A stretch of DNA of 64,000 nt, taken from contig NZ_JAUOPN010000005.1 of NCBI RefSeq assembly GCF_030547005.1, forward strand, positions 1 through 64,000, given 5' to 3'. The notes under the pieces were generated by a model that saw only the letters and a list, made by a program, of their open reading frames with translations, made no database searches and was not told the DNA's origin. Below are positions 12,296 through 30,896 of this stretch, in pieces (position 1 is the stretch's first letter; each line of letters begins with the position of its first letter). Both the position numbers and the translations under genes were made by a program. The DNA comes from Maribacter sp. 1_MG-2023 (GTDB taxonomy: Bacteria > Bacteroidota > Bacteroidia > Flavobacteriales > Flavobacteriaceae).

Positions 12296-12681
12296 AATAG
12301 TTGATCTACGTATGTATGTTTAACTTAAAAACAGCCACATTATTATGTAGTTAATCGGTAAACAGCATATTTATTTTTAAGCATTCGCAACATTTCTAAA
12401 GCACTAACACCATTTTTTACCGACTATGTAGTTTGTTTTAAATTTAAATGACCAAGAATTTATATGGTAACTGCAGATAATCTGATCAAATATGTATTCA
12501 TCGGATTTTATCTATCTCCCTATAAAACTCAGAAATGAAAAACCGACCTAGTGGTCGGTTTTATATTTTTTTGTGGCTTTTAGTTAAAAGTGTAGTTCGT
12601 CTAATCACACGCTGCCGAAATCTCATTGATTTTTTAACGAGTTGTAGTTCGCCACTGCCCTGGAACGAACAGACATCCGGA
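12296..12681. other. Intergenic region upstream of sprE
   Basis: This 386-bp gap lies between the ABC transporter gene and the sprE-atp operon, both on the minus strand. It should contain the operon promoter near 12300-12400, but no convincing consensus was found. It also holds the hairpin at 12539-12562. The 12590-12670 stretch contains two imperfect copies of GTAGTTCG, near 12591 and 12643. No RNA gene or ORF is supported. Confidence 0.6.
12539..12562. terminator. Bidirectional hairpin terminator after ABC transporter gene
   Basis: AAAACCGACC and GGTCGGTTTT pair perfectly around a TAGT loop, followed on both strands by T-rich sequence. It lies about 120 bp after the stop of the ABC ATPase gene. 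Its core is also similar, with two mismatches in 15, to the TetR-type operator sites at 20651 and 30243, but the terminator explanation is simpler here. Confidence 0.75.
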
Positions 12682-18046: not shown

Positions 18047-18817
18047 TTATGGAAACATAGTTTCAAATTTTCTCACTGCAGTCTCATACCCAATTGCATA
18101 GGCTTTTTCGATACCTCTTCGATCAAGTAAACCGATATGTTCCAATTCTTGCGATTCGAGGATAAGATGGCAATTATTAATTTTTTGTCGGTTAATAGCG
18201 TAAATCATCAACCCAGTTACTCTGCCTGTTAATTGAAATGAATTGTTCAAATGCTTCTTTTCTAATTTAGAAACTACCGAAACATTACTGCCAATTACAT
18301 ATTCTACTCTAGATAAAACCGGCTCTGAAGGAAAATTATTCATTATTCCGCCATCGGCATATAATTCACCATTGTACTCCACCGGACTAAAAACAGGAGG
18401 TAATGCTGCAGATGCTAATAAGGGCTTTATTAACTCACCTTTGTCTATAAAAAGCTCTTCGCCTTTTTGCAAATTGGTGGCAACCACGTGAAGCTCTCTA
18501 TTTAAAGCCTCAAAACTATCATCTGGAAAATATTGTTTGAAAGAAGATATGTAACTCTCGCTGTTCAATAAACCTGGTTTAGCGACCGCAAAGTAATTAT
18601 ATTTAAAAAGCGGAGTTTCCTTAAAAAACTTGAGCATATCTACAACTGGTTTATCGGCTGCATACAATGCACCTACCAAAGCACCAATACTGCTTCCGGA
18701 TACAACGTTGGCCTCTAGACCAAACTCTTGCATTGCCTTAATTACCCCTATATGTGCCATACCTCTTATGCCCCCACCGGAAAGCACTAAACCTACGGAC
18801 TTAGAACCTATTTGCAT
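18047..18817 (-). CDS. Patatin-like phospholipase family protein
   Basis: A 256-residue cytosolic serine acyl hydrolase. The oxyanion glycine-rich loop GGGIRG is near 14-19, the nucleophile elbow GSSIG is at 41-45 (Ser43), and the catalytic Asp lies in ADGG near 154-157. These form the Ser-Asp dyad of patatin-like lipases, which deacylate phospholipids or other acyl esters. There is no signal peptide. It follows the htrA gene on the same strand, but a strong terminator lies between, so it is probably transcribed alone. Confidence 0.93.
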   Translation of the reverse strand: MQIGSKSVGLVLSGGGIRGMAHIGVIKAMQEFGLEANVVSGSSIGALVGALYAADKPVVDMLKFFKETPLFKYNYFAVAKPGLLNSESYISSFKQYFPDDSFEALNRELHVVATNLQKGEELFIDKGELIKPLLASAALPPVFSPVEYNGELYADGGIMNNFPSEPVLSRVEYVIGSNVSVVSKLEKKHLNNSFQLTGRVTGLMIYAINRQKINNCHLILESQELEHIGLLDRRGIEKAYAIGYETAVRKFETMFP

Positions 18818-18835
18818 CTATCTAGAATTAATTTC

Positions 18836-18874
18836 AAAAAAAATGCCGAGCAAATATTATTATTCGCTCGGCAT
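18836..18874 (-). terminator. Intrinsic terminator of htrA
   Basis: ATGCCGAGC (18843-18851) pairs perfectly with GCTCGGCAT (18866-18874). On the minus strand the stem is followed by eight T residues (complement of 18836-18843). It is 22 bp after the protease stop codon. Confidence 0.88.
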
Positions 18875-18895
18875 AAAATTAAACATTAATGTGGA

Positions 18896-20410
18896 CTATG
18901 AATCCAATCCGAAGGCATAATAATTTTTAGTGCCATCTTCATAAATTCCTTCTAACATTACTCCGCCATTTTTATTCTCTAAAATAGCAGCAACGTCATC
19001 AACATCCTTTATTCGTTTACCATCAATATGCGTGATTATAAACCCTGCTCTCATTTGAGTTTCTTTCTTAATCTTACCAGGGTATAATTTGGTAACCTGA
19101 ACACCGCCATCTAAACCAAACTTCTTAGCAACTTCTTTATTTACGTTCTCAAAATCAGCTCCGAGCAGATTAAAAACCTCTTTCTCTTCTTTTTTAATAA
19201 TATCGGTACCGCCTTGAGAATTATGAAGCTCTACTTCTAATTCTTTTTCTTTACCGTTTCTATTTACAATAATGGCAACCTTATCGCCAGGTCTTTTACC
19301 AGCAATAATTTCTTGAAGCCTTGGTGAAGTTCCTGTTTCTTTACCATTTACGCTAACGATAATATCGCCAGATTCCATACCTGCCAAATCTGCGCCACTA
19401 TCTTCACCAACTTGTTCTACCCATACCCCTTTGGTAAAGTCAACATTTTTCTCTTTCGCTAAGTTACTGTCCATAGTTCTGATAGAAACTCCTAACATAC
19501 CACGTTGCACGTTACCGAATTTCAGTAAATCTTCGACTACTTTGGTAACGATGTTGCTAGGTACCGCAAATCCGTATCCTGTATATGTACCTGTTGTACT
19601 TGCTATGGCAGTGTTAATACCCACAAGGTTACCATCTAAATTCACTAAAGCACCACCACTGTTACCTGGGTTGATAGCAGCATCTGTCTGTATAAAGCTT
19701 TCTACCGCAAACTTATCTGTATTAATATGAATGCTTCTTGCCTTAGCACTTACGATACCCGCAGTAACCGTAGAATTCAACCCTAACGGATTACCAACTG
19801 CCAATACCCACTCACCGACTTCTACATCATCAGAATTTACCAATGACATCGTTTTTAGATTATCGGCTTTAATCTGTAAAAGCGCCAAATCTGTCGTTGG
19901 ATCGGTACCAATAACCGTCGCTTTATACGATTGGTTATTATATAAGGTAACCTCAACCTCATCGGCATTATCAATAACATGATTATTGGTAACGATATAT
20001 CCTTGGTCGTTAATAATTACTCCCGATCCCGTACCCACTCTAGGTCTTGACTGCGCACCGTTTGGAGATTGCCCTTTAAACATATCACCAAAAAACTCTT
20101 TAAAAGGATCTGGCAATTCGCGTGCACCTTGGCTTTGATTCGATGACCCCGTTTGGGTAGATTTAATATGCACTACGGCATCTAAAACTTTTTCAGAAGT
20201 TTCCGTAAAATCTAAAGGTTTAATATTTCCGTCGTTATCTCTAGTGTATAAAGCTTGTGCACCAGGTACAGATTCTACGACTGTTACACCAGTAGATTCT
20301 TTCATCTCCTGTTTGTTAAAATGTAGTACTCCGTAACTAACTGCAAGAGCAATAACTGCTGAGAAGAAGTAAACCTTCCAAGCGCTTCTGGTATTTGTGT
20401 CTGATTTCAT
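18896..20410 (-). CDS. HtrA/Deg periplasmic serine protease
   Basis: A 504-residue Do-family protease. The N-terminal hydrophobic helix (about 12-30) exports or anchors the protein. The trypsin-like domain has the catalytic triad His144 (TNNHVI), Asp174 (TDLALLQI) and Ser251 (GNSGGAL). Two PDZ domains follow (about 285-385 and 410-500). It degrades or refolds misfolded envelope proteins. Length and order match DegP/DegQ. The long 374-bp upstream region is shared with the divergent arsenosugar-type operon. Confidence 0.95.
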   Translation of the reverse strand: MKSDTNTRSAWKVYFFSAVIALAVSYGVLHFNKQEMKESTGVTVVESVPGAQALYTRDNDGNIKPLDFTETSEKVLDAVVHIKSTQTGSSNQSQGARELPDPFKEFFGDMFKGQSPNGAQSRPRVGTGSGVIINDQGYIVTNNHVIDNADEVEVTLYNNQSYKATVIGTDPTTDLALLQIKADNLKTMSLVNSDDVEVGEWVLAVGNPLGLNSTVTAGIVSAKARSIHINTDKFAVESFIQTDAAINPGNSGGALVNLDGNLVGINTAIASTTGTYTGYGFAVPSNIVTKVVEDLLKFGNVQRGMLGVSIRTMDSNLAKEKNVDFTKGVWVEQVGEDSGADLAGMESGDIIVSVNGKETGTSPRLQEIIAGKRPGDKVAIIVNRNGKEKELEVELHNSQGGTDIIKKEEKEVFNLLGADFENVNKEVAKKFGLDGGVQVTKLYPGKIKKETQMRAGFIITHIDGKRIKDVDDVAAILENKNGGVMLEGIYEDGTKNYYAFGLDS

Positions 20411-20525
20411 ATGTATTTAAATTTTTATAATTCTTCTGATGTCCTAATCGCAATAGCTATGCCATGCATATTGCTGTCAATGCTAAAAAAAAATTAAAAC
20501 TGATTGAAATTTTAAGGCTTTTTTT

Positions 20526-20539
20526 AGACTAACCAGTCT
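20526..20539. promoter_or_regulatory. Dyad AGACT-N4-AGTCT
   Basis: A perfect 5+5 palindrome with a 4-bp centre, 116 bp upstream of the htrA start. Its outer AGAC...GTC bases resemble the TetR-type sites at 20651 and 30243, but the inner bases differ. It may be a weaker site for the same regulator or a separate operator. Confidence 0.35.
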
Positions 20540-20650
20540 GTAACCTTAAAATTTTGTCAAAATCACGACTAAAAACAAGTTATTAAACTGATTTATGAGC
20601 ATGTTTATAGTCCAATATATAAGATAGGATACTAAATAGCGAGCATAAAA

Positions 20651-20665
20651 CCGACCAAGTGGTCT
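20651..20665 (+). promoter_or_regulatory. TetR-type operator candidate for the arsenosugar-type operon
   Basis: CCGACCAAGTGGTCT contains the dyad GACCA-AG-TGGTC. The same 15-mer, with a single central change, occurs on the other strand at 30243-30257 just before the tetR gene that ends this cluster. It lies 120 bp upstream of the first gene's start. The natural reading is a shared operator of the cluster's TetR protein. Confidence 0.6.
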
Positions 20666-20784
20666 AAAACTGTCATTTTGACTTAAAGTAAAGTATTTCG
20701 TATGTTTTAATTTAACTATTATGCATACTTAAAAAACCTTTGCTATATTTTTACGTAAGTTTAACAACGAGAAATAACATATAA

Positions 20785-21474
20785 TTGAATTCACTGAGTA
20801 CTACTGCAATTCTGGTTTTTGCCAATTCCGCTAAAGAAGATTTAGCGAACAAGCACATTGCTAAAGGCGAACAGTTATTTGATCTTTTAACTCAAACTAC
20901 ACTCAAGAAAGCAAAAAACACAGGTTTACCTGTTTTTCACTTTTCAGACAAAGATCAAGTTGGTGCTACTTTTGGTGAGCGTTTTACCAATGCCATTGCC
21001 AACGTTTTTGAAAGAGGCTTTTCTAACATTATTACCATTGGTAATGACACTCCGCATTTAAATACACAGCATCTTAAGCATACTGCCCACCAATTGGCAA
21101 TTGGTAAGACTGTAATTGGTCCTTCAAATGATGGTGGTTTCTATTTGTTAGGTCTACAAAAATCTAACTTTCAGGTTGCAGAATTTCAAAATTTACCATG
21201 GCAGCGCTTCAGCTTATACCACCAAATTTCATTGTGGTTACAAGAAGAGTCGTCTGAATTAATAAAATTACCTGTTCTACAAGATTTGGATAACGAAAGA
21301 GATTTAAAATCTATACTATCGTTTTCTTCTGGTCTATCATCAACCATATTATTGTTGATTATCGGTTTATTAGAAATAAACAGAAGTCTATACTACACTA
21401 AACAGAACTTCTCTAAACTATTACCCAACAGCTTTCTTTATAACAAAGGCTCCCCTGAAGTATCATTTATCTAA
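20785..21474 (+). CDS. DUF2064/CofC-like transferase, arsenosugar-cluster type
   Basis: A 229-residue member of the rSAM/selenodomain-associated transferase 1 (TIGR04282, DUF2064) family, a GT-A-like nucleotidyl/glycosyltransferase fold. Visible family motifs are GERFTNAI near 73, IGNDTP near 95, GPSNDGGFYLLGL near 120 and DLDNERDL near 172. The N-terminal GxxKTRL motif usual in the family is not present (residues 11-30 read FANSAKEDLANKHIAKG). The last 45 residues extend beyond the core and include a hydrophobic stretch. The start is TTG, directly preceded by an in-frame TAA, so no earlier start exists. It is the first gene of the arsenosugar-type operon. Confidence 0.8.
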   Translation: MNSLSTTAILVFANSAKEDLANKHIAKGEQLFDLLTQTTLKKAKNTGLPVFHFSDKDQVGATFGERFTNAIANVFERGFSNIITIGNDTPHLNTQHLKHTAHQLAIGKTVIGPSNDGGFYLLGLQKSNFQVAEFQNLPWQRFSLYHQISLWLQEESSELIKLPVLQDLDNERDLKSILSFSSGLSSTILLLIIGLLEINRSLYYTKQNFSKLLPNSFLYNKGSPEVSFI

Positions 21475-21526
21475 TTCCCTCTTTGCCCAATAGTTGGGCA
21501 AATACAACTTCAGTTTAAAGCTTTTT

Positions 21527-24500
21527 ATGAGACACTTAATATTAGTGTTGACACTGTTTATGATAAACATGGTCAATGCTCAAGAAACTATAACAGGTAT
21601 CGTAACAGATACCGATGGAAATACGATACCATACGTAAACATTCTACTGTCAGGCACCGTAACTGGATCGACCACTAATGAAAATGGTTTTTATACTATT
21701 GATATACCTAACCTCGCAGGCGCTATTGAATTTTCAGTTTTAGGATATGAAACTCAAATAGTCTCCATTAACAATCGAAGTACTATAAATATCACCTTGG
21801 CAGATTCATCTGAAGTTTTAGACGAAGTCGTATTAACTGCATTAGGGTTGAAACGAGAAACCAAAGAATTAGGTTATGTAGTTCAAAGTTTAGACGCCAA
21901 AGGAGTTACGGAAGTAAAATCAGTGAACTTTCTAGACAACCTCTCTGGTAAACTGGCAGGTGTAACTATTAACCAAGGTGCTACTGGTGTTGGTTCTTCA
22001 TCAAAAATTACTATTCGTGGTGAAGCTTCTTTCTCTAATAACAATCCGTTGTTTATTGTAGATGGAGTGCCTATTAATAACAACTCGGTTTTCAACTTTA
22101 CCAATGAAGCAGCAGCAGGATTTCAAGAAATCGATTTTGGAAATGGCGCTATGGATGTGAATCCTGATGATATTGCAGAAGTATCTGTATTAAAAGGACC
22201 AAGTGCGGCAGCGCTTTACGGCACAAGAGCATCTAACGGTGTTATCATTATTGAAACCAAAAGCGGTAAAAATTCGAAAGGATTGGGAGTTAGTTACAAT
22301 ACCAGCTTTTTTGTGGATTCAGCTTTTCAATTGCCCGATTTTCAAAATGAATACGGTCAAGGTAATTCTGGGGAATTTGCTTTTGTAGACGGATTAGGTG
22401 GTGGAACAAATGACTTAATCACCTACAGCTGGGGACCACGCTTAGATGTTGGCAATTTAATCCCGCAATATGATAGTCCCGTGACATTGGCAGACGGAAC
22501 AATTGTTCGTGGTGGTGATACTGCTCTTTACAATGGCAATGCGATAACACCAACGGAGTTTAAATCGAATCCTGATAACTTGAAGGATTTCTATGAAACC
22601 GGAACAACGTTAATTAATAACATCGCTATTTCTAACGGATTTGAAAAAGGTAACTATCGTCTTTCGTTTACGGATTTGAGAAGTGAATCTATAATACCGG
22701 GAGTTAATTTAAACCGACAAACCGTAAGTGCACGTTTGAATTTTCATCCTATTGATAAATTACGCATCAATTCATCTATAAGTTATATAAATTCAAATAG
22801 TGACAACAGACCTTCTAATGGGTATGGTTCTGAAAATGCCAACTATTCTTTAGTCGCTTGGGGTCCGCGTTCTTTAAACATTGAAAATTTAAAAAACTAC
22901 TGGCAACCAGGTTTAGAAGGCATACAACAGTATTCATATAACTATACCTTTTTCGATAATCCGTATTTTATTCTTAATGAAAATACCAACTCTTTCAATA
23001 GAGATCGTGTTTTTGGAAACATCTCAGCCAGCTATGATATTACAGCGCACATAACGGCATCTATACGAACAGGAATGGATTATTCAAGTGAATTACGCCA
23101 ATTAAAAAGGGCTTATAGTTCTAATCGTTTCTCTAATGGTGCTTATGCCGAGCATGATGTTTTCTATAGAGAAGTGAATACCGATTTTCTATTAAATTAT
23201 TCAAATCAATTCAATGACTTTAAAGTTGATGTATCACTTGGCGGAAATCGTTTAGATCAAAAGGCATTCACCTCACAAGCGCAAACCACAAGCTTAGCAC
23301 AACCGGGTATTTTTAGATTATCGAATGCTGCTTCACCAATTGAAGTTTTTGAGTTCGATTCGAATAAAAGAATAAACAGTTTTTACGGTTTAGCAAAATT
23401 CGGATATAAAGACTTTCTTTTCTTAGATGTCACAGGCAGAAACGATTGGTCTAGTGCCTTGGCTACTCCGTTTTCGGTAGATAATACCTCATTCTTTTAT
23501 CCATCGGTATCTAGTAGTTTTATATTATCTCAAGTGGTTGCTTTACCTAAAGCAATTTCATTTGCAAAACTAAGGGCAAGTTGGGCACAGGTTGGTAACG
23601 ATACAAATCCGTATCAGACTACAGGTGCTTTTGTAGCGCAGACACCGTTTAATGGTCAACCTACTTTCAGTAATTCAAACACGATTGCAAATGCAAATCT
23701 ACAACCAGAACTAACCTCTTCATTTGAAGTAGGTGCAGATGTACGATTGTTTGGCGATCAGGTTCGGTTCGATGTTTCTTATTATAATGCTTTGACCAAA
23801 GATCAAATCATTTCTTTGCCTATAGGTATCTCCTCCGGTTATACACAGCAAGTAGTTAATGGTGGTGAAGTTCGTTCTAAAGGAGTAGAGATTATTTTGG
23901 GCATATCGCCAGTAATAAGTCAGAATTTAAAATGGAATAGCACTTTAAATTTTAGTACTAATAAATCTACGGTAGAAAGTTTACCACAAGACGAAGGACG
24001 ATTAACACTGGCATATTCTAGAATCTACGATAGTCAAAACCAAACGGTATTTTTACAGGCAGAAGAAGGCGGTCGCGTTGGTGACCTATACGGAACAGGA
24101 TATCTTAAAAATGATAATGGCGATTTTATTCTTACGGATGAAGGCAGATACATACCAGATAATGAACTTCAAAAATTGGGTAATTACAATCCTGATTTTA
24201 TGTTGGGTTTCAATAACCAGTTCAATTATAAAAACTGGAATATGGGTTTCCTTTTCGATTGGCGCCAAGGCGGAATCATAGTTTCTAGAACAAGGGCTTT
24301 AGGTAATGTTGGTGGTCAATTAGCTGAAACAGCTTTTAGACCCGAAGGTGGTATTGTTCCCGAAGGCGTTCTGAATACAGGTACTGCAGATAATACTGTT
24401 TATTCACAGAACACTGTGGCAGTTTCGGCAGAAAGTTACTACCGTCAGTTTTATGATAGAAACCATGAAGAAAACAACACCTATGACGCTTCCTTTTTAA

Positions 24501-24730
24501 AGTTGCGTCAATTATCTGTTGGCTATACGTTTGACAATCTTAGTGTACTTAACCAAGATGCAACCCTGAGTTTATCTCTTATCGGAAAGAACTTGTTCGC
24601 CATTACGGAGAATCCACATTTTGACCCAGAGCAGCTAGCGGTACAAGGACAAGGATTTATAAGTGGTGTTGAAGATATGTCATACGCCACCACAAGAAGC
24701 ATAGGTTTCAAAGCCGGATTTAATTTTTAA
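21527..24730 (+). CDS. SusC/RagA-type TonB-dependent outer-membrane receptor
   Basis: A 1067-residue protein: signal peptide (MRHLILVLTLF to NAQ, about 20 residues), then a carboxypeptidase-like regulatory domain (about 22-105; GIVTDTDGNTIPYVNILLSG). A TonB-box-like EVVLTALG, a plug domain (about 120-235, ending KGPSAAALYGTRASNGVIIIETKSG) and a 22-strand-type barrel to the C-terminal Phe follow. These receptors import bulky nutrients with TonB energy, together with a SusD lipoprotein encoded next. I chose the ATG at 21527 because a TTG 33 bp upstream would put charged residues before the signal. No CAZyme is nearby, so the ligand is probably not a typical polysaccharide. Confidence 0.95.
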   Translation: MRHLILVLTLFMINMVNAQETITGIVTDTDGNTIPYVNILLSGTVTGSTTNENGFYTIDIPNLAGAIEFSVLGYETQIVSINNRSTINITLADSSEVLDEVVLTALGLKRETKELGYVVQSLDAKGVTEVKSVNFLDNLSGKLAGVTINQGATGVGSSSKITIRGEASFSNNNPLFIVDGVPINNNSVFNFTNEAAAGFQEIDFGNGAMDVNPDDIAEVSVLKGPSAAALYGTRASNGVIIIETKSGKNSKGLGVSYNTSFFVDSAFQLPDFQNEYGQGNSGEFAFVDGLGGGTNDLITYSWGPRLDVGNLIPQYDSPVTLADGTIVRGGDTALYNGNAITPTEFKSNPDNLKDFYETGTTLINNIAISNGFEKGNYRLSFTDLRSESIIPGVNLNRQTVSARLNFHPIDKLRINSSISYINSNSDNRPSNGYGSENANYSLVAWGPRSLNIENLKNYWQPGLEGIQQYSYNYTFFDNPYFILNENTNSFNRDRVFGNISASYDITAHITASIRTGMDYSSELRQLKRAYSSNRFSNGAYAEHDVFYREVNTDFLLNYSNQFNDFKVDVSLGGNRLDQKAFTSQAQTTSLAQPGIFRLSNAASPIEVFEFDSNKRINSFYGLAKFGYKDFLFLDVTGRNDWSSALATPFSVDNTSFFYPSVSSSFILSQVVALPKAISFAKLRASWAQVGNDTNPYQTTGAFVAQTPFNGQPTFSNSNTIANANLQPELTSSFEVGADVRLFGDQVRFDVSYYNALTKDQIISLPIGISSGYTQQVVNGGEVRSKGVEIILGISPVISQNLKWNSTLNFSTNKSTVESLPQDEGRLTLAYSRIYDSQNQTVFLQAEEGGRVGDLYGTGYLKNDNGDFILTDEGRYIPDNELQKLGNYNPDFMLGFNNQFNYKNWNMGFLFDWRQGGIIVSRTRALGNVGGQLAETAFRPEGGIVPEGVLNTGTADNTVYSQNTVAVSAESYYRQFYDRNHEENNTYDASFLKLRQLSVGYTFDNLSVLNQDATLSLSLIGKNLFAITENPHFDPEQLAVQGQGFISGVEDMSYATTRSIGFKAGFNF

Positions 24731-24739
24731 GAAAAAAAG

Positions 24740-26164
24740 ATGAAACATATATATAGCATTCTAATCTTATTATTGGTCGTTGGCTGCACAAAAGATTTTG
24801 AAGAAATTAATACGAATACCAATGATCCTGTAGCGGTACAACCTAGTCTATTGTTAAGACAGGTTATCTATGATTTTGGTGAACAAATGTCATATGAAGG
24901 TTTTACTGCAGGCAATCTGTTAGGTCAATATAGTACAGCTCTCGATTTCAACTTATTCGATCGTCATGATTTGAAATCTCCACAATTAGGTGGAAATCCG
25001 TGGCCTATATTCTATCAAAATCTAAGGGACAATGAAATCATATTGAATTTATCTCAAGAAAATACTGCCTTTGCGGTATATGAGGGTCCCGCAAGAATTA
25101 TGAAAGCATATATGGCGGCAGGTTTAACAGATTTATTTGGTGACGTTCCTTATTCTGAAGCATTCAAAGGTGATACAGAAACCGTCACTCCCGTTTACGA
25201 TTCTCAAGAATCTATTTATATGGATGAAGGTGGCATATTTGATAATCTCGATAAAGGTATTGCTGCGCTTGAGAGCTACACAGGTACAATTGCCTTAGAA
25301 GGTGATATTTTATTTAATGGCGATTTGGATGGATGGATCCGTTTAGCAAATTCATTGAAGATTAAATATCTAATGCGTGTTTCAGGTAAAATAGATGTTG
25401 CGTCTCAATTACAGACAATAGTTACTAATGGTAATTTCATTGATGATAACAGCGAAAATGCGATTTTCAATTTTACCGATGGTGAGCCAAACAATTTCAG
25501 ATTAGCACGATTGAGAATAGGTGATTTCAACAACTACGTGCTATCAGAAACTATGGACGAAATCTTGACCGGTTTAAATGACCCACGTATTAGCCGAATG
25601 TATAAACCATTTGCAAATAGTACTGATGGCGGTTACAACGGATTATTAAATGGGATTGATGCCTCTGCCGGAGTCTCGTTAGCTGATTATTCCTTATTAG
25701 GGACGATTTTTAGAGAAAATACAGGGCTTTTAGACGCCAATTTCATGACCAGTATGGAAACTCATTTATTGTTAGCAGAAGCCGCCCAAAAAGGGTTGAT
25801 TACTGCCGATGCTGAAAGTCTTTATAATACGGGAATAACCCAAGCATTTGAATATTGGCAAGTATCGCTTCCTGCTGATTATTTAACGGTTGATGCTTCT
25901 TTAAGCAATGGCAATCCTATAGAAAATATCATCACTCAAAAATGGATTGCAAATAGTATAAACGGTTATGAAGGTTGGGTTGAATATAGAAGAACAGGTT
26001 TTCCGCAATTGAAAACAATTTCCGCTAGTTTGAACAATAATTTAATTCCGATTCGCATGCCATATCCTTCAGAAGAAGAAGCTTTAAATAATGCCAATTA
26101 TACCGAAGCTTCAAACAATACGGAAGGCAATAGTATAAATGTACCTGTTTGGTGGGATGAGTAA
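24740..26164 (+). CDS. SusD/RagB-family surface lipoprotein
   Basis: A 474-residue lipoprotein with signal ending LVVGC (lipidated Cys16). The SusD-like-2 pattern is recognisable: TKDFEEINTNTNDPV after the Cys, a helical TPR-like region (about 90-200, YMAAGLTDLFGDVPYSEAF), and the C-terminal EGWVEYRRTGFPQL near 410-425, followed by the RMPYPSEE motif. It caps the preceding SusC receptor and captures ligand at the cell surface. It starts 9 bp after the receptor gene. Confidence 0.94.
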   Translation: MKHIYSILILLLVVGCTKDFEEINTNTNDPVAVQPSLLLRQVIYDFGEQMSYEGFTAGNLLGQYSTALDFNLFDRHDLKSPQLGGNPWPIFYQNLRDNEIILNLSQENTAFAVYEGPARIMKAYMAAGLTDLFGDVPYSEAFKGDTETVTPVYDSQESIYMDEGGIFDNLDKGIAALESYTGTIALEGDILFNGDLDGWIRLANSLKIKYLMRVSGKIDVASQLQTIVTNGNFIDDNSENAIFNFTDGEPNNFRLARLRIGDFNNYVLSETMDEILTGLNDPRISRMYKPFANSTDGGYNGLLNGIDASAGVSLADYSLLGTIFRENTGLLDANFMTSMETHLLLAEAAQKGLITADAESLYNTGITQAFEYWQVSLPADYLTVDASLSNGNPIENIITQKWIANSINGYEGWVEYRRTGFPQLKTISASLNNNLIPIRMPYPSEEEALNNANYTEASNNTEGNSINVPVWWDE

Positions 26165-26166
26165 CA

Positions 26167-26194
26167 GAGTTAGGAGTTAGGAGTTAGGAGTTAG
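26167..26194 (+). repeat. Four tandem copies of the heptamer GAGTTAG
   Basis: Four perfect 7-bp units fill most of the 44-bp gap between susD and the symporter gene, ending 14 bp before the symporter ATG. Because TAG recurs every 7 bp, a stop occurs in all three frames. Copy-number change by slippage could alter the symporter's leader. Other 7-bp repeats occur in this window at 4363, 28745, 28917 and 33774. Confidence 0.85.
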
Positions 26195-26208
26195 GTAAGA
26201 ACAAAAAA

Positions 26209-27549
26209 ATGACTGAAGTAAAAATTTGGCAATGGGGATTAATAATAACATCAAGTTTGGTGTTGTTTTTCCTTTCCCCATGGGCAAAAGACACTAACCA
26301 GTTTTTTAAGGCAGTCCAGAAAAAGAAAGCACCCAATACTTTTATGTTAATGGGTAGCTTGATCATCTCTTGGATTTTTGCAAAGAGTATTACAAATGCC
26401 GCTAATTTAGGTTTGGACTTCGGCATTGTTGGTGGAGTGGCGTATGCTGGATATTATTTATCCTTTGCAGTTGCGGGTATCGTCATTTATAAAATGAGGC
26501 TACATGGTAAATACACCAGTATTCATCATTTCCTTTCCTCCAAATTTGGTAAGGCAGCAGTAAATATTTTTTCCATTTTAATAGCATTTCGTTTATTCAA
26601 TGAAGTCTGGAGTAACACTATGGTTATTGGTTCTTACTTTGGTGATATGGGTACGAGCCCATATTATTGGTCCATTTTAGTATTTACCGGACTAACATTG
26701 GCTTATGTACTCAAAGGAGGCATGAGCAGTTCAATTTTTACCGATGTTGTCCAAATGGGGCTATTCTCTATACTATTAGCGGTAATATTGTTCACTATTT
26801 TTGGAAAGGATAATGCAATCACCACTACCGAAGTGGTTAACTCTGGAATATGGTCTTTTGAAACAGGGCTTAATTTACTATTCGCTGCATTGCTACAATC
26901 CTTTAGTTATCCCTTTCATGACCCGGTGTTAACCGATAGAGGATTTATCAGTAGTCCGAAAGTAACATTGAAGAGTTTTTTATGGGCAAGTGTACTAGGT
27001 GCTATCTGTATCATCTTATTTAGTATTATCGGAGTATATGCACAATTTCAAGGTATGCACGGTCAGGCTGCAGTACAAGTTGGTAAAGCATTTGGAACCG
27101 TAATATTATTAGTCATCAATTTCATCATGATCACCTCTGCTGCATCTACATTAGATTCTACTTTTTCATCATTTTCAAAACTATTAGCTCTCGACTTAAA
27201 CTTAGGAAACACTTTAAAATTCGGTCGTTGGTCTATGGTTGCTATTGCAGTGCTAGGTACAATTCCTGTTTTTTTAGATGCAGAGATATTATCTGCTACG
27301 ACGATTAGTGGAACTATGGTGATAGGGCTTACTCCTGTATTCCTTTTTTGGAAGGATAAAGCACCTAAAATCAGTTTTCACCTAAGCGTATTTATAGGAT
27401 TGCTATTTGGGTTCCTTTTAATTTTTAAATGGTTTCCAGATAATTTGATTTTCACCACCGGCAAGTATGCCGATTTACTTTGGATTAATTTTTGGGGCAT
27501 TTTATGTTGCCTATTCGTTTATATAATACCTACATGGATAAAGAAATAA
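26209..27549 (+). CDS. Sodium:solute symporter family protein
   Basis: A 446-residue inner-membrane protein with about 12-13 hydrophobic segments, of the SSS family. Typical features are the early GGVAYAGYYLSFAVAGIV helices, LKGGMSSSIFTDVVQ near 165-180, and the ITSAASTLDSTFSSFSKL segment near 310, which corresponds to the sodium-site helix of the family. It probably brings the compound delivered by the SusC/SusD pair across the inner membrane. Its 3' end overlaps the next gene by 16 bp, so the two are translationally linked. Confidence 0.88.
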   Translation: MTEVKIWQWGLIITSSLVLFFLSPWAKDTNQFFKAVQKKKAPNTFMLMGSLIISWIFAKSITNAANLGLDFGIVGGVAYAGYYLSFAVAGIVIYKMRLHGKYTSIHHFLSSKFGKAAVNIFSILIAFRLFNEVWSNTMVIGSYFGDMGTSPYYWSILVFTGLTLAYVLKGGMSSSIFTDVVQMGLFSILLAVILFTIFGKDNAITTTEVVNSGIWSFETGLNLLFAALLQSFSYPFHDPVLTDRGFISSPKVTLKSFLWASVLGAICIILFSIIGVYAQFQGMHGQAAVQVGKAFGTVILLVINFIMITSAASTLDSTFSSFSKLLALDLNLGNTLKFGRWSMVAIAVLGTIPVFLDAEILSATTISGTMVIGLTPVFLFWKDKAPKISFHLSVFIGLLFGFLLIFKWFPDNLIFTTGKYADLLWINFWGILCCLFVYIIPTWIKK

Positions 27550-28739
27550 AACATATTGGTGCCAAGAACGGAAAGCTGTTACTTTTTGGTGGCGTGTACA
27601 GTAATCTTCAGGCTTTACAGCAATTGATTTCGATAGCTGAAGAAGCAGGAATTCAACCTGAGAATTGTATTAGCACCGGAGATCTTACCGGGTATTGTGC
27701 ACAACCAGAAGAAACCGTACAACTGTTTCAAACATGGGGTGCATTAAGCATTGCAGGTAATGTAGAGCTACAATTGGCTAGCGATAGCGAAGACTGTGGA
27801 TGCGATTTCAAAAGTGGTAGCCGTTGTGATGATTTTTCAAAAATGTGGTTTCCGTATACTAAGGGACATTTATCTCAACAGTCTTTAGGTTGGATGAAGG
27901 AAATACCAGAGTACATCAGTTTCGATTATGGTAGTAAGAAAGTAACCGTAGTCCATGGAAACTATGGAAATACTTCTGAATTCGTATTCAAGTCAAATGC
28001 CACAGAAAGTAAAGTACGCTGTTTTAATGAGACTAAAAGTGATATCATCATAGCAGGTCATTGCGGTCTACCATTTCATCAATCTATCAAAGATCAGCTA
28101 TGGCTTAATCCTGGAGTAATTGGAATGCCCGCAAATGATGGCACAACTAGAGTTTGGTATATGCTTTTAGATGTTCTTGATGGCGAAGTATCCTACACAC
28201 ATCAATCATTTGAATACGATGCCGAAACCGCACAAAAATTAATGTATAAAAATCACTTGCCCGAAGCCTATGGCGATACACTTACCTCTGGCATTTGGGA
28301 CAACATGGAAATTCTCCCTGAAATAGAAAAAATGGGACAGGGAATTCCAATTCACTTTAACCAAGATCAAAAAGATTCAATAAAACCTAAAACACAAAAA
28401 AAGATGGCAAATACGTATTACGACCCAGCAGATTTAAGAAAATTTGGAAAAATTACTGAGTGGAGCGAAGAGCTAGGAACAAAATTTTTCGATTATTATG
28501 GTAAGGTTTTCGAAGAAGGCGCACTAAGTGCTAGAGAAAAGTCCCTAATTGCTTTAGCTGTCTCTCATGTAGTTAAGTGTCCGTATTGCATTGATGCGTA
28601 TACCAAAGACGGATTGCAAAAAGGAATTACGAAAGAAGAAATGATGGAAGCCGTTCATGTTGGTGCTGCCATTGAAAGCGGTGCAACATTGGTACATGGT
28701 GTACAGATGATGAATAAGTATAATAAATTGTCCATGTAA
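27534..28739 (+). CDS. Degenerate metallophosphoesterase fused to AhpD-like arsenosugar-associated domain
   Basis: A 401-residue two-domain protein. Residues 12-215 follow the calcineurin-like phosphoesterase order: FGGVYSNLQAL (18-28), TGDLTGY (48-54), AGNVE (74-78), VVHGN (139-143), AGHCG (174-178). However, the usual N-terminal D-x-H metal ligands are Gly and Tyr, and the His of GNH and the second His of GHTH are replaced. A Cys cluster CGC...C lies at 88-98. Residues 291-401 form an AhpD/carboxymuconolactone-decarboxylase domain with redox CPYC at 349-352, of the peroxidase-like type found beside ArsS. The reading frame is open across the join; Met291 (28404) is a possible internal start. 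The ATG at 27534 was chosen over a TTG at 27492. Confidence 0.87.
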   Translation: MDKEIKHIGAKNGKLLLFGGVYSNLQALQQLISIAEEAGIQPENCISTGDLTGYCAQPEETVQLFQTWGALSIAGNVELQLASDSEDCGCDFKSGSRCDDFSKMWFPYTKGHLSQQSLGWMKEIPEYISFDYGSKKVTVVHGNYGNTSEFVFKSNATESKVRCFNETKSDIIIAGHCGLPFHQSIKDQLWLNPGVIGMPANDGTTRVWYMLLDVLDGEVSYTHQSFEYDAETAQKLMYKNHLPEAYGDTLTSGIWDNMEILPEIEKMGQGIPIHFNQDQKDSIKPKTQKKMANTYYDPADLRKFGKITEWSEELGTKFFDYYGKVFEEGALSAREKSLIALAVSHVVKCPYCIDAYTKDGLQKGITKEEMMEAVHVGAAIESGATLVHGVQMMNKYNKLSM

Positions 28740-28744
28740 ATTTC

Positions 28745-28772
28745 GTTGTTGGTTATTCGTTGATGGTTGTTG
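28745..28772. repeat. Degenerate heptad repeat, left arm (GTTnnnn x4)
   Basis: Four successive 7-bp units, GTTGTTG, GTTATTC, GTTGATG and GTTGTTG, lie just after the stop of the fused phosphoesterase/AhpD gene. They are roughly the reverse complement of the units at 28917-28944. Together the two arms bracket about 145 bp of AT-rich DNA, like the terminal repeats of a miniature palindromic element. Confidence 0.6.
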
Positions 28773-28916
28773 GTAGCAGCCTCTTTAATAATCAATACAT
28801 TGAAATTAAAGCTAGTTTAAAAAATATTGCAAATGGAATATTCATTATGAATATTCACGGTTAAGAATAAGAAATTAATTGTTGTCTTGTTAAAGTTTGA
28901 AGCATTTACAAAATGC

Positions 28917-28945
28917 CAACAACGAACAACGAACAACGAACAACT
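28917..28945. repeat. Heptad repeat, right arm (AACAACG x3 plus AACAACT)
   Basis: Three perfect AACAACG units and a final AACAACT end 5 bp before the arsS start codon, so the repeat forms the immediate leader of that gene. It mirrors the left arm at 28745-28772. The DNA between the arms holds no ORF of note. Confidence 0.8.
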
Positions 28946-28950
28946 AAAAA

Positions 28951-30006
28951 ATGGCTACAAAATCATTAAAAGCGACAGGAAACGATTTAGCAGTTTCCAA
29001 TAAGCAATTAGAAATATTAAGCGGAGGAATCTTTGCTGATGGCGAACTTCCTTATTTTAAAGATAAAATTGCCGAAATAGGACGTTTTCCATTACGACCT
29101 AAAAAATTGGAAATCTTGCAAATCAATGTAGGTTACATGTGTAATCAAGTTTGTGAACATTGCCACGTAGATGCTGGTCCAGATCGCAAAGAAATCATGA
29201 CGCGTGAAACCATGCACCAATGCCTAGAGGTCATTAAAAATACGGGAGCTCACACATTGGATTTAACTGGTGGAGCACCAGAAATGAATCCTGATTTTGA
29301 GTGGTTCGTAGAAGAAGCGGCTAAAGCTGGAATTAAAGATTTTATTGTTCGTTCTAACCTTACTATAATTAGAGCTAATAAAAAATATTATCACTTACCA
29401 GATTTCTTTAAGAAACATAATGTGCACGTTATTTCTTCAATGCCACACTACACACGTGGTAAAACAGATAAGCAAAGAGGGGACGGTGTTTTTGATAAGT
29501 CGATCAAGGCATTGCAAGAATTAAACGAAAGAGGCTACGGTATGCCAGGTAGCGATTTAAGGCTAGATTTAGTCTATAATCCATCAGGTGCATATTTACC
29601 AGGTGATCAAGCAGCGATGGAAAAAGATTTCAAAAAAGCTTTAAAAGAGGATTTTGATATTCAGTTTCATAGTCTTTTTGCCATTACAAATTTACCCATT
29701 GCACGTTTCTTAGACTACTTAATAGCATCTGAGAATTATGAAGATTATATGTATGCTCTAGTAGAAGCTTATAACCCCTCTGCAGTAGAAAATGTTATGT
29801 GTACCAATACGATATCTATTAGTTGGGATGGATGGTTATACGATTGTGATTTTAACCAAATGCTAGACCTAAAAGTAGCTAGCAAGGTGAAGCATATTAA
29901 GGACTATAATGAAGATTTGTTAAACGATAGAAACATTATCATATCACAGCATTGTTATGGTTGTACAGCAGGTGCCGGTAGTAGTTGCCAGGGTACTGTT
30001 GCTTAA
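28951..30006 (+). CDS. arsS: ArsS-type radical SAM protein, arsenosugar biosynthesis
   Basis: A 351-residue radical SAM protein. The 4Fe-4S/SAM motif C-x3-C-x2-C is Cys64, Cys68, Cys71 (CNQVCEHC), followed by the SAM-binding glycine-rich strand DLTGGAPEMNP near 110-120. The C-terminal Cys-rich region has Cys at 335, 338 and 346 (HCYGCTAGAGSSC), the hallmark of the rSAM/Cys-rich family that can contain selenocysteine; here all are Cys. ArsS is proposed to transfer the 5'-deoxyadenosyl group to methylated arsenic during arsenosugar formation. It is separated from the upstream operon by a 211-bp repeat-bearing gap, so it may have its own promoter. Confidence 0.9.
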   Translation: MATKSLKATGNDLAVSNKQLEILSGGIFADGELPYFKDKIAEIGRFPLRPKKLEILQINVGYMCNQVCEHCHVDAGPDRKEIMTRETMHQCLEVIKNTGAHTLDLTGGAPEMNPDFEWFVEEAAKAGIKDFIVRSNLTIIRANKKYYHLPDFFKKHNVHVISSMPHYTRGKTDKQRGDGVFDKSIKALQELNERGYGMPGSDLRLDLVYNPSGAYLPGDQAAMEKDFKKALKEDFDIQFHSLFAITNLPIARFLDYLIASENYEDYMYALVEAYNPSAVENVMCTNTISISWDGWLYDCDFNQMLDLKVASKVKHIKDYNEDLLNDRNIIISQHCYGCTAGAGSSCQGTVA

Positions 30007-30116
30007 TACAATTTAGGATGAAATTAAAGAACCGTTTGATGATTTAAATTGAGCAGTTTTTTGTTTTAAACGAACTCATTCTACTATAAACCAACCAAAT
30101 AAATCACGTACAGAAC

Positions 30117-30131
30117 TGACCACTTAGTTTG
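30117..30131 (-). promoter_or_regulatory. Second operator-like site upstream of tetR
   Basis: On the minus strand this reads CAAACTAAGTGGTCA, matching 11 of 15 positions of the site at 20651, including the AAGTGGTC half. It lies about 150 bp upstream of the tetR start. It may be a weaker site for the same regulator. Confidence 0.4.
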
Positions 30132-30242
30132 TTTAGCAGTGTAAAAAGGATGTCATACACCGATAAAATGTACGTTTATCGAAAAAAAATGCATCTAATC
30201 TATAAATCCTGAGGTTGTTTGACAATCTAGCGTTCTATAAAA

Positions 30243-30257
30243 AGACCACATGGTCGG
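30243..30257 (-). promoter_or_regulatory. TetR-type operator candidate at the tetR promoter
   Basis: The minus strand reads CCGACCATGTGGTCT, with dyad GACCA-TG-TGGTC. It differs by one central base from the site at 20651-20665, ten kilobases away. It is 21 bp before the tetR start codon, a typical place for autorepression. Confidence 0.65.
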
Positions 30258-30278
30258 ATTTACCCAAATCTACATATT

Positions 30279-30896
30279 ATGAACAAGAGCCTTAAGCGCA
30301 TGGCAACCATGCAACGTTTACAGAACACCGGATTAGAATTGTTTTATGCCCAAGGGTATTACGATACTAGTATAGATGATATTTTAAAAAAACTAGACCT
30401 TTCTAAAGGTGCTTTTTATTATCACTTCGAATCTAAAGAAGATTTTTTTATACAAATTATAGAAAATCTTCTTGCACGTAAAATATACAGCACATTAATA
30501 GAACCTATTGAGGGTCATGATAATCCATTAACACTTATTACAAAATGTTTCGACGATGCTTTGGAAACCGCAGTTCATAATGAAATGGATTATGGTTGTG
30601 TTCTAAGTAATTTTTTGGCCGAATTCAATGGTAAGAATGATGTTGTTATGCGTCATCTAAATGAGATTGTTACTGTATGGGAGGTAAATCTAGTAACTGC
30701 TCTACAAAAAGGAAAATTTAATGGCTATTTAGACCGCCATGCAGATTGTGAAGCTGCAGCTACTTTTATAATGAGTTCTTATTTCGGAGTAAGAATTTTA
30801 ATGACAAGTGCAGCTCCTTCTTCTAAAAAATATCGATTTATGTCTCAGATACGTCAATACTTTAAAAGTATAGAAGCTAAGCCCGTAAATTCTTAA
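30279..30896 (+). CDS. TetR/AcrR-family transcriptional regulator
   Basis: A 205-residue TetR-type repressor. The N-terminal helix-turn-helix (about 10-58) has the classic LSKGAFYYHFESKEDFF recognition segment. The C-terminal domain (about 75-200) is a ligand-binding helical bundle typical of the family; it holds Cys at 98 and 153 (CVLSNF and the later DCEAAATF). It closes the arsenosugar-type cluster. The paired operator-like sites at 20651 and 30243 suggest that it represses both the operon and itself. The inducer is unknown; an arsenical or a membrane substrate are options. Its TAA stop overlaps the stop of the convergent GT9 gene (shared TTAA). Confidence 0.92.
   Translation: MNKSLKRMATMQRLQNTGLELFYAQGYYDTSIDDILKKLDLSKGAFYYHFESKEDFFIQIIENLLARKIYSTLIEPIEGHDNPLTLITKCFDDALETAVHNEMDYGCVLSNFLAEFNGKNDVVMRHLNEIVTVWEVNLVTALQKGKFNGYLDRHADCEAAATFIMSSYFGVRILMTSAAPSSKKYRFMSQIRQYFKSIEAKPVNS

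Follow-up and report, generated by a model that had tools for sequence, protein, structure and literature searches.

What does a predicted uptake system do beside an enzyme that builds arsenosugars? The question is raised by a locus in Maribacter sp. 1_MG-2023, within a stretch of 64,000 nucleotides (here called the window) that lies on contig C41 of a 4.27 Mb genome, 99.98% complete as assembled. Seven genes, all present and in one direction at 20785-30896, encode in order a paralogue of the CofC transferase (CofC'), a SusC-type transporter and a SusD-type lipoprotein (together SusCD), a divergent sodium:solute symporter (SSS), a calcineurin-like domain (Pho) fused to an AhpD domain, the radical SAM enzyme ArsS, and a TetR-family regulator. 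Passages of PMC12159101 attribute to ArsS the adenosylation of arsenic in the arsenosugar pathway. An earlier reading of the window, made from the letters alone (the sequence-only reading), had suggested that the locus may import an arsenical or a nucleoside-like precursor. We find that the uptake genes do not stand beside ArsS by chance, and we see an even chance that they import a ready-methylated (dimethylarsinoyl-type) arsenic compound and feed it to ArsS, a cargo that we judge from gene content and from its distribution among genomes.

Linkage of an uptake module to ArsS

The central assignments of the sequence-only reading stand, since family scores and coordinates agree on SusC, SusD, ArsS and the AhpD domain, all read in the same direction and closed by the TetR gene (Table 1). 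ArsS passes the TIGR04167 equivalog cut-off and has its cluster motif CxxxCxxC intact as CNQVCEHC; its closest named counterpart, within the top 80 of 588 confirmed relatives, is that of Maribacter huludaoensis (97% identity). The AhpD domain is a full member of TIGR04169 with a CPYC motif, and SusC and SusD form a pair by both family score and adjacency. The symporter calls for more caution. An SSS-like gene is there, with a SAASTLDS stretch that we take to resemble the SSS sodium site, but it scores slightly below the cut-off of the Pfam family SSF and far below that of TIGR00813, and no sequence relative was found in PDB at an E-value of 0.1. Its 120 listed database relatives have generic names (sodium:solute or Na+/proline symporter, SLC5/6 family protein) and hence give no clue to the cargo.

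Neighbourhoods were compared in the named-genome ArsS loci (those of the best 80 relatives), in 149 genomes of the family and in 395 genomes of the class, with neighbours labelled by BLAST searches of a small set of references; an unlabelled gene may thus be anything. The usual cluster in the 80 named loci reads AhpD-ArsS-rhodanese-CofC-PNP-ArsM-DUF547-glycosyltransferase. Orthologues of both SusC and SusD stand beside ArsS in 15 of these loci (in L072 the contig ends within the block), upstream as in the window in five and downstream in ten. They belong to a module with the gene order CofC'-SusC-SusD-SSS-Pho, which occurs in two conserved arrangements relative to ArsS. Locus L059 lacks SusCD but has SSS and Pho.

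Across the family sample, ArsS scores above cut-off in 111 of the 149 genomes. SusD orthologues (at least 65% identity) occur in 19, the next-best SusD matches falling to 42% identity. All 19 genomes have ArsS, which lies at most 5.3 kb away in 18 (the exception is G087, at ~181 kb), and the symporter adjoins SusD in every one. Pho occurs in 21 genomes, namely these 19 together with G002 and G121, with ArsS present in all 21 and nearby in 20; given 111/149, the chance of 21/21 is 0.0012, a figure in which adjacency is not yet counted and relatedness is ignored. Class-wide, Pho was found in 14/395 genomes, and among the 13 besides the window's own ArsS is present in 12 and nearby in four. One of these four (G393) belongs to the family, which leaves ArsS nearby in 3 of the 12 genomes outside it. 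The only Pho genome without ArsS, G527, is 89% complete and divided into 840 contigs. The module accompanies ArsS even where the two are unlinked: ArsS is present in 33 of the 34 Pho genomes of both samples pooled, although the class part of that count comes without a baseline frequency of ArsS. The sequence-only reading had named SusCD occurring mostly without ArsS in relatives as an outcome that would refute it; on the contrary, SusCD in the family sample is always accompanied by ArsS and almost always adjacent to it, and the uptake genes thus belong with the arsenosugar system, as had been supposed.

ArsM and the two halves of the pathway

The sequence-only reading had noted that arsM is missing from the window, and this extends to the whole genome, in which no match above cut-off was found for the general ArsM family NF008823 (best 37 versus 263 bits) or for the arsenosugar ArsM NF038099. 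The weak matches were inspected by open reading frame start and cysteine count only; the best of them starts in a manner that we presume to be that of a UbiE-type methyltransferase. NF038099 is found in 85 of the 149 family genomes, every one with ArsS. The search for general ArsM covered the 26 ArsS genomes without NF038099, of which 11 have a match above cut-off, none of the 11 with SusCD. Both ArsM families are missing in 9 of the 19 SusCD genomes compared with 6 of the 92 other ArsS genomes (Fisher p 5e-5), and among near-complete genomes in 8/18 compared with 3/79 (p 3.6e-5), in tests that take related genomes as independent, a first reservation. When ArsM loss was simulated along the best tree of ArsS, keeping SusCD fixed, 0 of 4000 runs were as extreme for both families together; here the reservation is that the tree is strongly supported at only 2 of its 108 inner branches. 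Enrichment of ArsM absence with the module fits import of a methylated arsenical and, since the genome lacks a recognisable ArsM, the imported arsenical would probably have been methylated beforehand by other organisms. The six ArsS genomes that lack both ArsM families and SusCD comprise three less than 90% complete (G095, G062 and G065), G063, G046 and G098. G063 has a different importer, a TonB receptor with an ABC transporter, between CofC' and rhodanese, the place of the module elsewhere.

Several further points count against the import of a methylated arsenical. Taken by itself, NF038099 gives a weaker contrast (missing in 9/19 versus 17/92, p 0.014) and p 0.0125 in the same simulation, and a paired tree test had 2-3 pairs and was underpowered. 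G046 and G098 are near-complete, lack both ArsM families and have no module genes near ArsS. G121 lacks SusCD and NF038099 but has SSS, Pho and a general ArsM match, the last with one in-frame stop. Beyond the family, the module lies apart from ArsS in 9 of 12 genomes, in one of which no ArsS was found. An unrecognised methyltransferase could act in place of ArsM, and dimethylarsinate, a small molecule, may be taken up without SusCD, which would call for a larger cargo, for example an arsenosugar. Most directly, ArsM is kept in 10 of the 19 SusCD genomes. Its absence is therefore not the general distinguishing mark that the sequence-only reading had made of it, import is not a simple replacement of methylation, and a straightforward swap of ArsM for the importer was rejected.

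The later steps of the pathway are encoded elsewhere in the genome, on contig C7 (~18196-21101), where a glycosyltransferase, PNP, the canonical CofC and rhodanese are found (CofC and the glycosyltransferase above family cut-off, PNP and rhodanese by BLAST). Hence, the locus in the window is one half of a split pathway, and not a self-contained remodelling cassette. In the locus matching C7, ArsM lies between PNP and DUF547 in the relative G056 and is absent in G000, G075 and G050. The ArsM slot after PNP is also empty in six single-locus SusCD genomes (G045, G074, G076, G091, G111 and G140), which keep ArsS, SusCD, SSS, Pho, rhodanese, CofC, PNP, DUF547 and the glycosyltransferase (AhpD is unlabelled in G074, CofC' in G111). 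Compared with the ArsM-ArsS arsenosugar cluster (TIGR04167, NF038099, TIGR04169, TIGR04282, TIGR04283), the locus has ArsS and AhpD as full members, with the rest on C7, but no ArsM was found in the genome, the genes are divided between two loci, and a five-gene uptake module and the Pho-AhpD fusion are added.

Some variation was seen among related loci. A second TIGR04283-like glycosyltransferase match (G000:C45:87549-88211) is below cut-off, has two in-frame stops and is likely a pseudogene. The ArsS cluster of G098 (L218) has another set of glycosyltransferases (a 230-aa GT2, a 496-aa GT2 and a GT87); G046 (L217) and G065 (L225) have genes of similar size, and no ArsM was recognised in any of the three. 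Further transporters were tallied in 81 of the 111 ArsS loci, those with at least 12 kb of sequence each (the ArsM-free G046 was just too short and was left out). A PiT-type phosphate transporter gene, identified by eye, is present in eight of the 81 (in G141, G101, G148, G078, G019, G051, G138 and G082); all eight genomes have the arsenosugar ArsM and none has SusCD, and the transporter is possibly an entry route for arsenate.

Pho, CofC' and the proposed cargo

Pho aligns with metallophosphoesterases, by sequence with 3rqz and by fold with 3qfm (Foldseek with an AlphaFold model of pLDDT 93). The fusion to AhpD named in the sequence-only reading is real; the designation phosphoesterase needs correcting, as catalytic motifs are gone. 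In the window GVY, GNV and GHCG stand in for the catalytic motifs DxH, GNH and GHxH, and among 34 Pho proteins, one per module-bearing genome of the family and class samples, all 34 have them replaced, by FGG-x-YSN, GNVE and GH[CAS]G, respectively. The GD motif and the HG histidine are kept, while DxH, GNH and the last histidine of GHxH are lost. Five cysteines (C45, C55, C88, C90 and C98) are invariant in 33 aligned Pho proteins. Pho is thus like the metallophosphoesterases (PF12850; 3qfm, 3rqz) in fold, as judged by model and search, and unlike them in its replaced motifs and added cysteines. A working phosphodiesterase acting on an arsenosugar-phosphate was rejected because of the motif replacement. 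Directly ahead of ArsS, the Pho-AhpD fusion is found in G000, G056 and G075 of the same family and also in families f3 and f63 (a single genome in each), and the fusion ties Pho to the AhpD-ArsS step.

The first gene of the locus had been read as a CofC/DUF2064-like transferase. A related gene is there, but it is a divergent paralogue, the true CofC being the copy on C7. CofC' aligns with TIGR04282 over its C-terminal two thirds, lacks the N-terminal KTRL signature and remains below cut-off with a match that begins only at profile position 70, and is hence distinct from the standard arsenosugar transferase. Sub-threshold TIGR04282 matches, among those listed, start at profile position 37 or beyond. 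In comparing the two groups (4 of 38 CofC' shorter than 200 residues were dropped and 25 of 89 CofC were sampled), the KTRL-like motif itself decided to which group a sequence was assigned, which makes the motif comparison alone circular; profile coverage is the independent evidence.

From these observations we infer a cargo, a direction of transport, a function for Pho and a mode of regulation as follows. SusCD would move a dimethylarsinoyl compound, one larger than dimethylarsinate, across the outer membrane with TonB energy, and the sodium symporter would carry it into the cell. After being bound or split by Pho, the compound would reach AhpD, the CPYC thiol domain fused to Pho, which would yield trivalent dimethylarsenic; ArsS would then attach the 5'-deoxyadenosyl group. 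Conversion to an arsenosugar glycoside would fall to the rhodanese, PNP, true CofC and glycosyltransferase of C7, and TetR would keep both the operon and its own gene repressed until an arsenical or a pathway product appears. The earlier suggestion that the locus may import an arsenical is partly supported, by the linkage of SusCD with ArsS and by the enrichment of ArsM absence, with an arsenical as the putative cargo. More tentatively, marine Bacteroidota may possess dedicated organoarsenical import, in which SusCD and the symporter obtain methylated arsenic by scavenging from algae or neighbours, a cysteine-bearing pseudo-phosphoesterase relays it to AhpD and ArsS, and many species have dropped methylation to become "arsenic pirates" of the marine arsenic cycle. 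If so, exchange of arsenosugars between algae and bacteria would add to their production and decomposition, some bacteria would make them without methylating arsenic, Pho and CofC', both degenerate enzyme families, would gain possible roles, and what arsenosugars do for bacteria would be open to single-gene deletion tests in culturable marine strains.

To our knowledge, no outer-membrane import system for an organoarsenical has been described. Each kind of part is known, but the combination was not met in the literature searched: among the matches listed, arsenosugar and SusD were not found together, and the other papers listed were without arsenosugar or organoarsenical terms (most subscription journals lay outside the search). 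The NanOU sialic-acid uptake operon (PMC3969230) also joins a TonB-dependent receptor and a SusD-family protein for one small molecule; there the cargo is sialic acid, whereas here it would likely be an arsenical. On the breakdown of arsenosugars, passages of PMC6656958 report thiolation but no dimethylarsinate after treatment with enteric bacteria, which is neutral for the proposed import.

The main rival, which we consider doubtful, is that the importer serves the arsenosugar pathway with a cargo free of arsenic, such as a glycan, glyceryl or nucleoside compound that the glycosyltransferase would use as acceptor or building block. The same co-occurrence with ArsS would result, the SusCD genomes that keep ArsM need no imported arsenical, and SusCD normally transports sugars or peptides. 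However, such a cargo leaves unexplained the enrichment of the module in ArsM-less genomes and why Pho is fused to AhpD beside ArsS and not to the glycosyltransferase, and the glycosyltransferase TIGR04283 is present in 101 of the 149 genomes, 82 of them without SusCD.

Uptake of finished arsenosugars or arsenolipids from algae or neighbours, for recycling or as carbon in the manner of siderophore piracy, appears improbable to us. It draws on two genomes without ArsS above cut-off (G001 and G129) that carry CofC'-SusC-SusD with an ABC importer, a nucleoside hydrolase and a similar TetR, and that retain rhodanese-CofC-PNP-glycosyltransferase. Their SusCD differ from those of the window, though (37-43% identity), no SSS-Pho pair occurs in the stretch examined, and the genome of the window keeps ArsS and the later steps, which would be needless for finished products.

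Far less credible is a set of ordinary glycan-utilisation genes placed beside ArsS by chance, which would suit the abundance of SusCD pairs in these bacteria and the separation of the module from ArsS outside the family, but which was rejected on the co-occurrence with ArsS (18 of 19 adjacent, 33 of 34 in ArsS genomes), the gene order being conserved in two arrangements and profile scans finding no glycan hydrolase among the seven proteins. As in polysaccharide utilisation loci, SusC and SusD are full members and adjacent; here, unlike there, the pair lacks a glycan-degrading enzyme, is linked to ArsS and has a divergent sodium symporter as partner. Equally remote is an arsenic-resistance or export locus: TetR regulators often govern efflux and AhpD-like proteins can serve stress defence, but SusCD and SSS are known as importers, and no ArsB, Acr3, ArsA or ArsC family turned up in profile scans of the seven proteins.

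Regulation and layout of the locus

The operon is preceded by two copies of a palindrome of the form GACYR-NN-YRGTC, and tetR by one. Of 48 upstream regions from the window and 24 related loci, 19 contain it with no mismatch and 35 with at most one, compared with 0.2% and 5.4%, respectively, of shuffled regions; the pattern was picked after viewing sites from the window and from nine of the related loci, all of them among the 25 counted, and the shuffles preserved base composition only. With the shared palindrome as putative operator, the operon and tetR would both be under TetR control. The same palindrome is found in G001 (L196) and G129 (L198), near TetR proteins 71-75% identical to that of the window; G129 also has a kinase-like APH gene. 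In G018 (L202), a 103-aa ArsS fragment, an apparent relic of ArsS, lies next to a TetR gene whose operator-like palindrome is perfect.

Table 1. Positions of genes, domains and palindromes of the locus, counted from the first letter of the window
Feature	Position	Strand	Remarks
Palindrome GACTAACCAGTC	20527..20538	.	Putative TetR operator upstream of operon; 0 mismatches to GACYR-NN-YRGTC
Palindrome GACCAAGTGGTC	20653..20664	.	Second putative TetR operator upstream of operon
CofC', CofC-like (DUF2064) paralogue	20785..21474	+	TTG start; N-terminal KTRL signature of CofC gone; TIGR04282 91 bits (cut-off 134)
SusC-type TonB-dependent outer-membrane transporter	21494..24730	+	TIGR04056 583 bits (cut-off 368)
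SusD-type surface lipoprotein	24740..26164	+	PF12771 (SusD-like_2) 292 bits
Divergent sodium:solute symporter (SSS family)	26209..27549	+	TIGR00813 32 bits (cut-off 184), PF00474 21.5 bits (cut-off 22.8); both below cut-off
Pho domain, calcineurin-like (metallophosphoesterase) fold	27534..28409	+	PF12850 39 bits; altered motifs; AlphaFold model; Foldseek
AhpD domain with CPYC, fused to Pho	28410..28739	+	TIGR04169 196 bits (cut-off 120)
ArsS, arsenosugar radical SAM enzyme	28951..30006	+	TIGR04167 440 bits (cut-off 300)
Palindrome GACCACATGGTC	30244..30255	.	Putative TetR operator upstream of tetR
TetR-family regulator	30279..30896	+	PF00440 and PF16925

The intergenic gaps are, in order, 19, 9, 44, -16, 211 and 272 bases, the negative value marking the start of the pho gene, which overlaps the end of the symporter gene. 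The true start of SusC is likely the ATG at 21527, ahead of a signal-peptide-like stretch, as judged by eye. A near-perfect palindrome, AAAACCGACCTAGTGGTCGGTTTT (12539-12562), resembles the TetR sites and lies between genes that by eye are ABC-ATPase-like and lipoprotein-like (851 aa); it may be an operator or a hairpin. Short tandem repeats, also noted by eye, are found in two of the gaps, as AGTTAGG units after susD (26165-26200) and as CAACGAA units before arsS (28915-28945).

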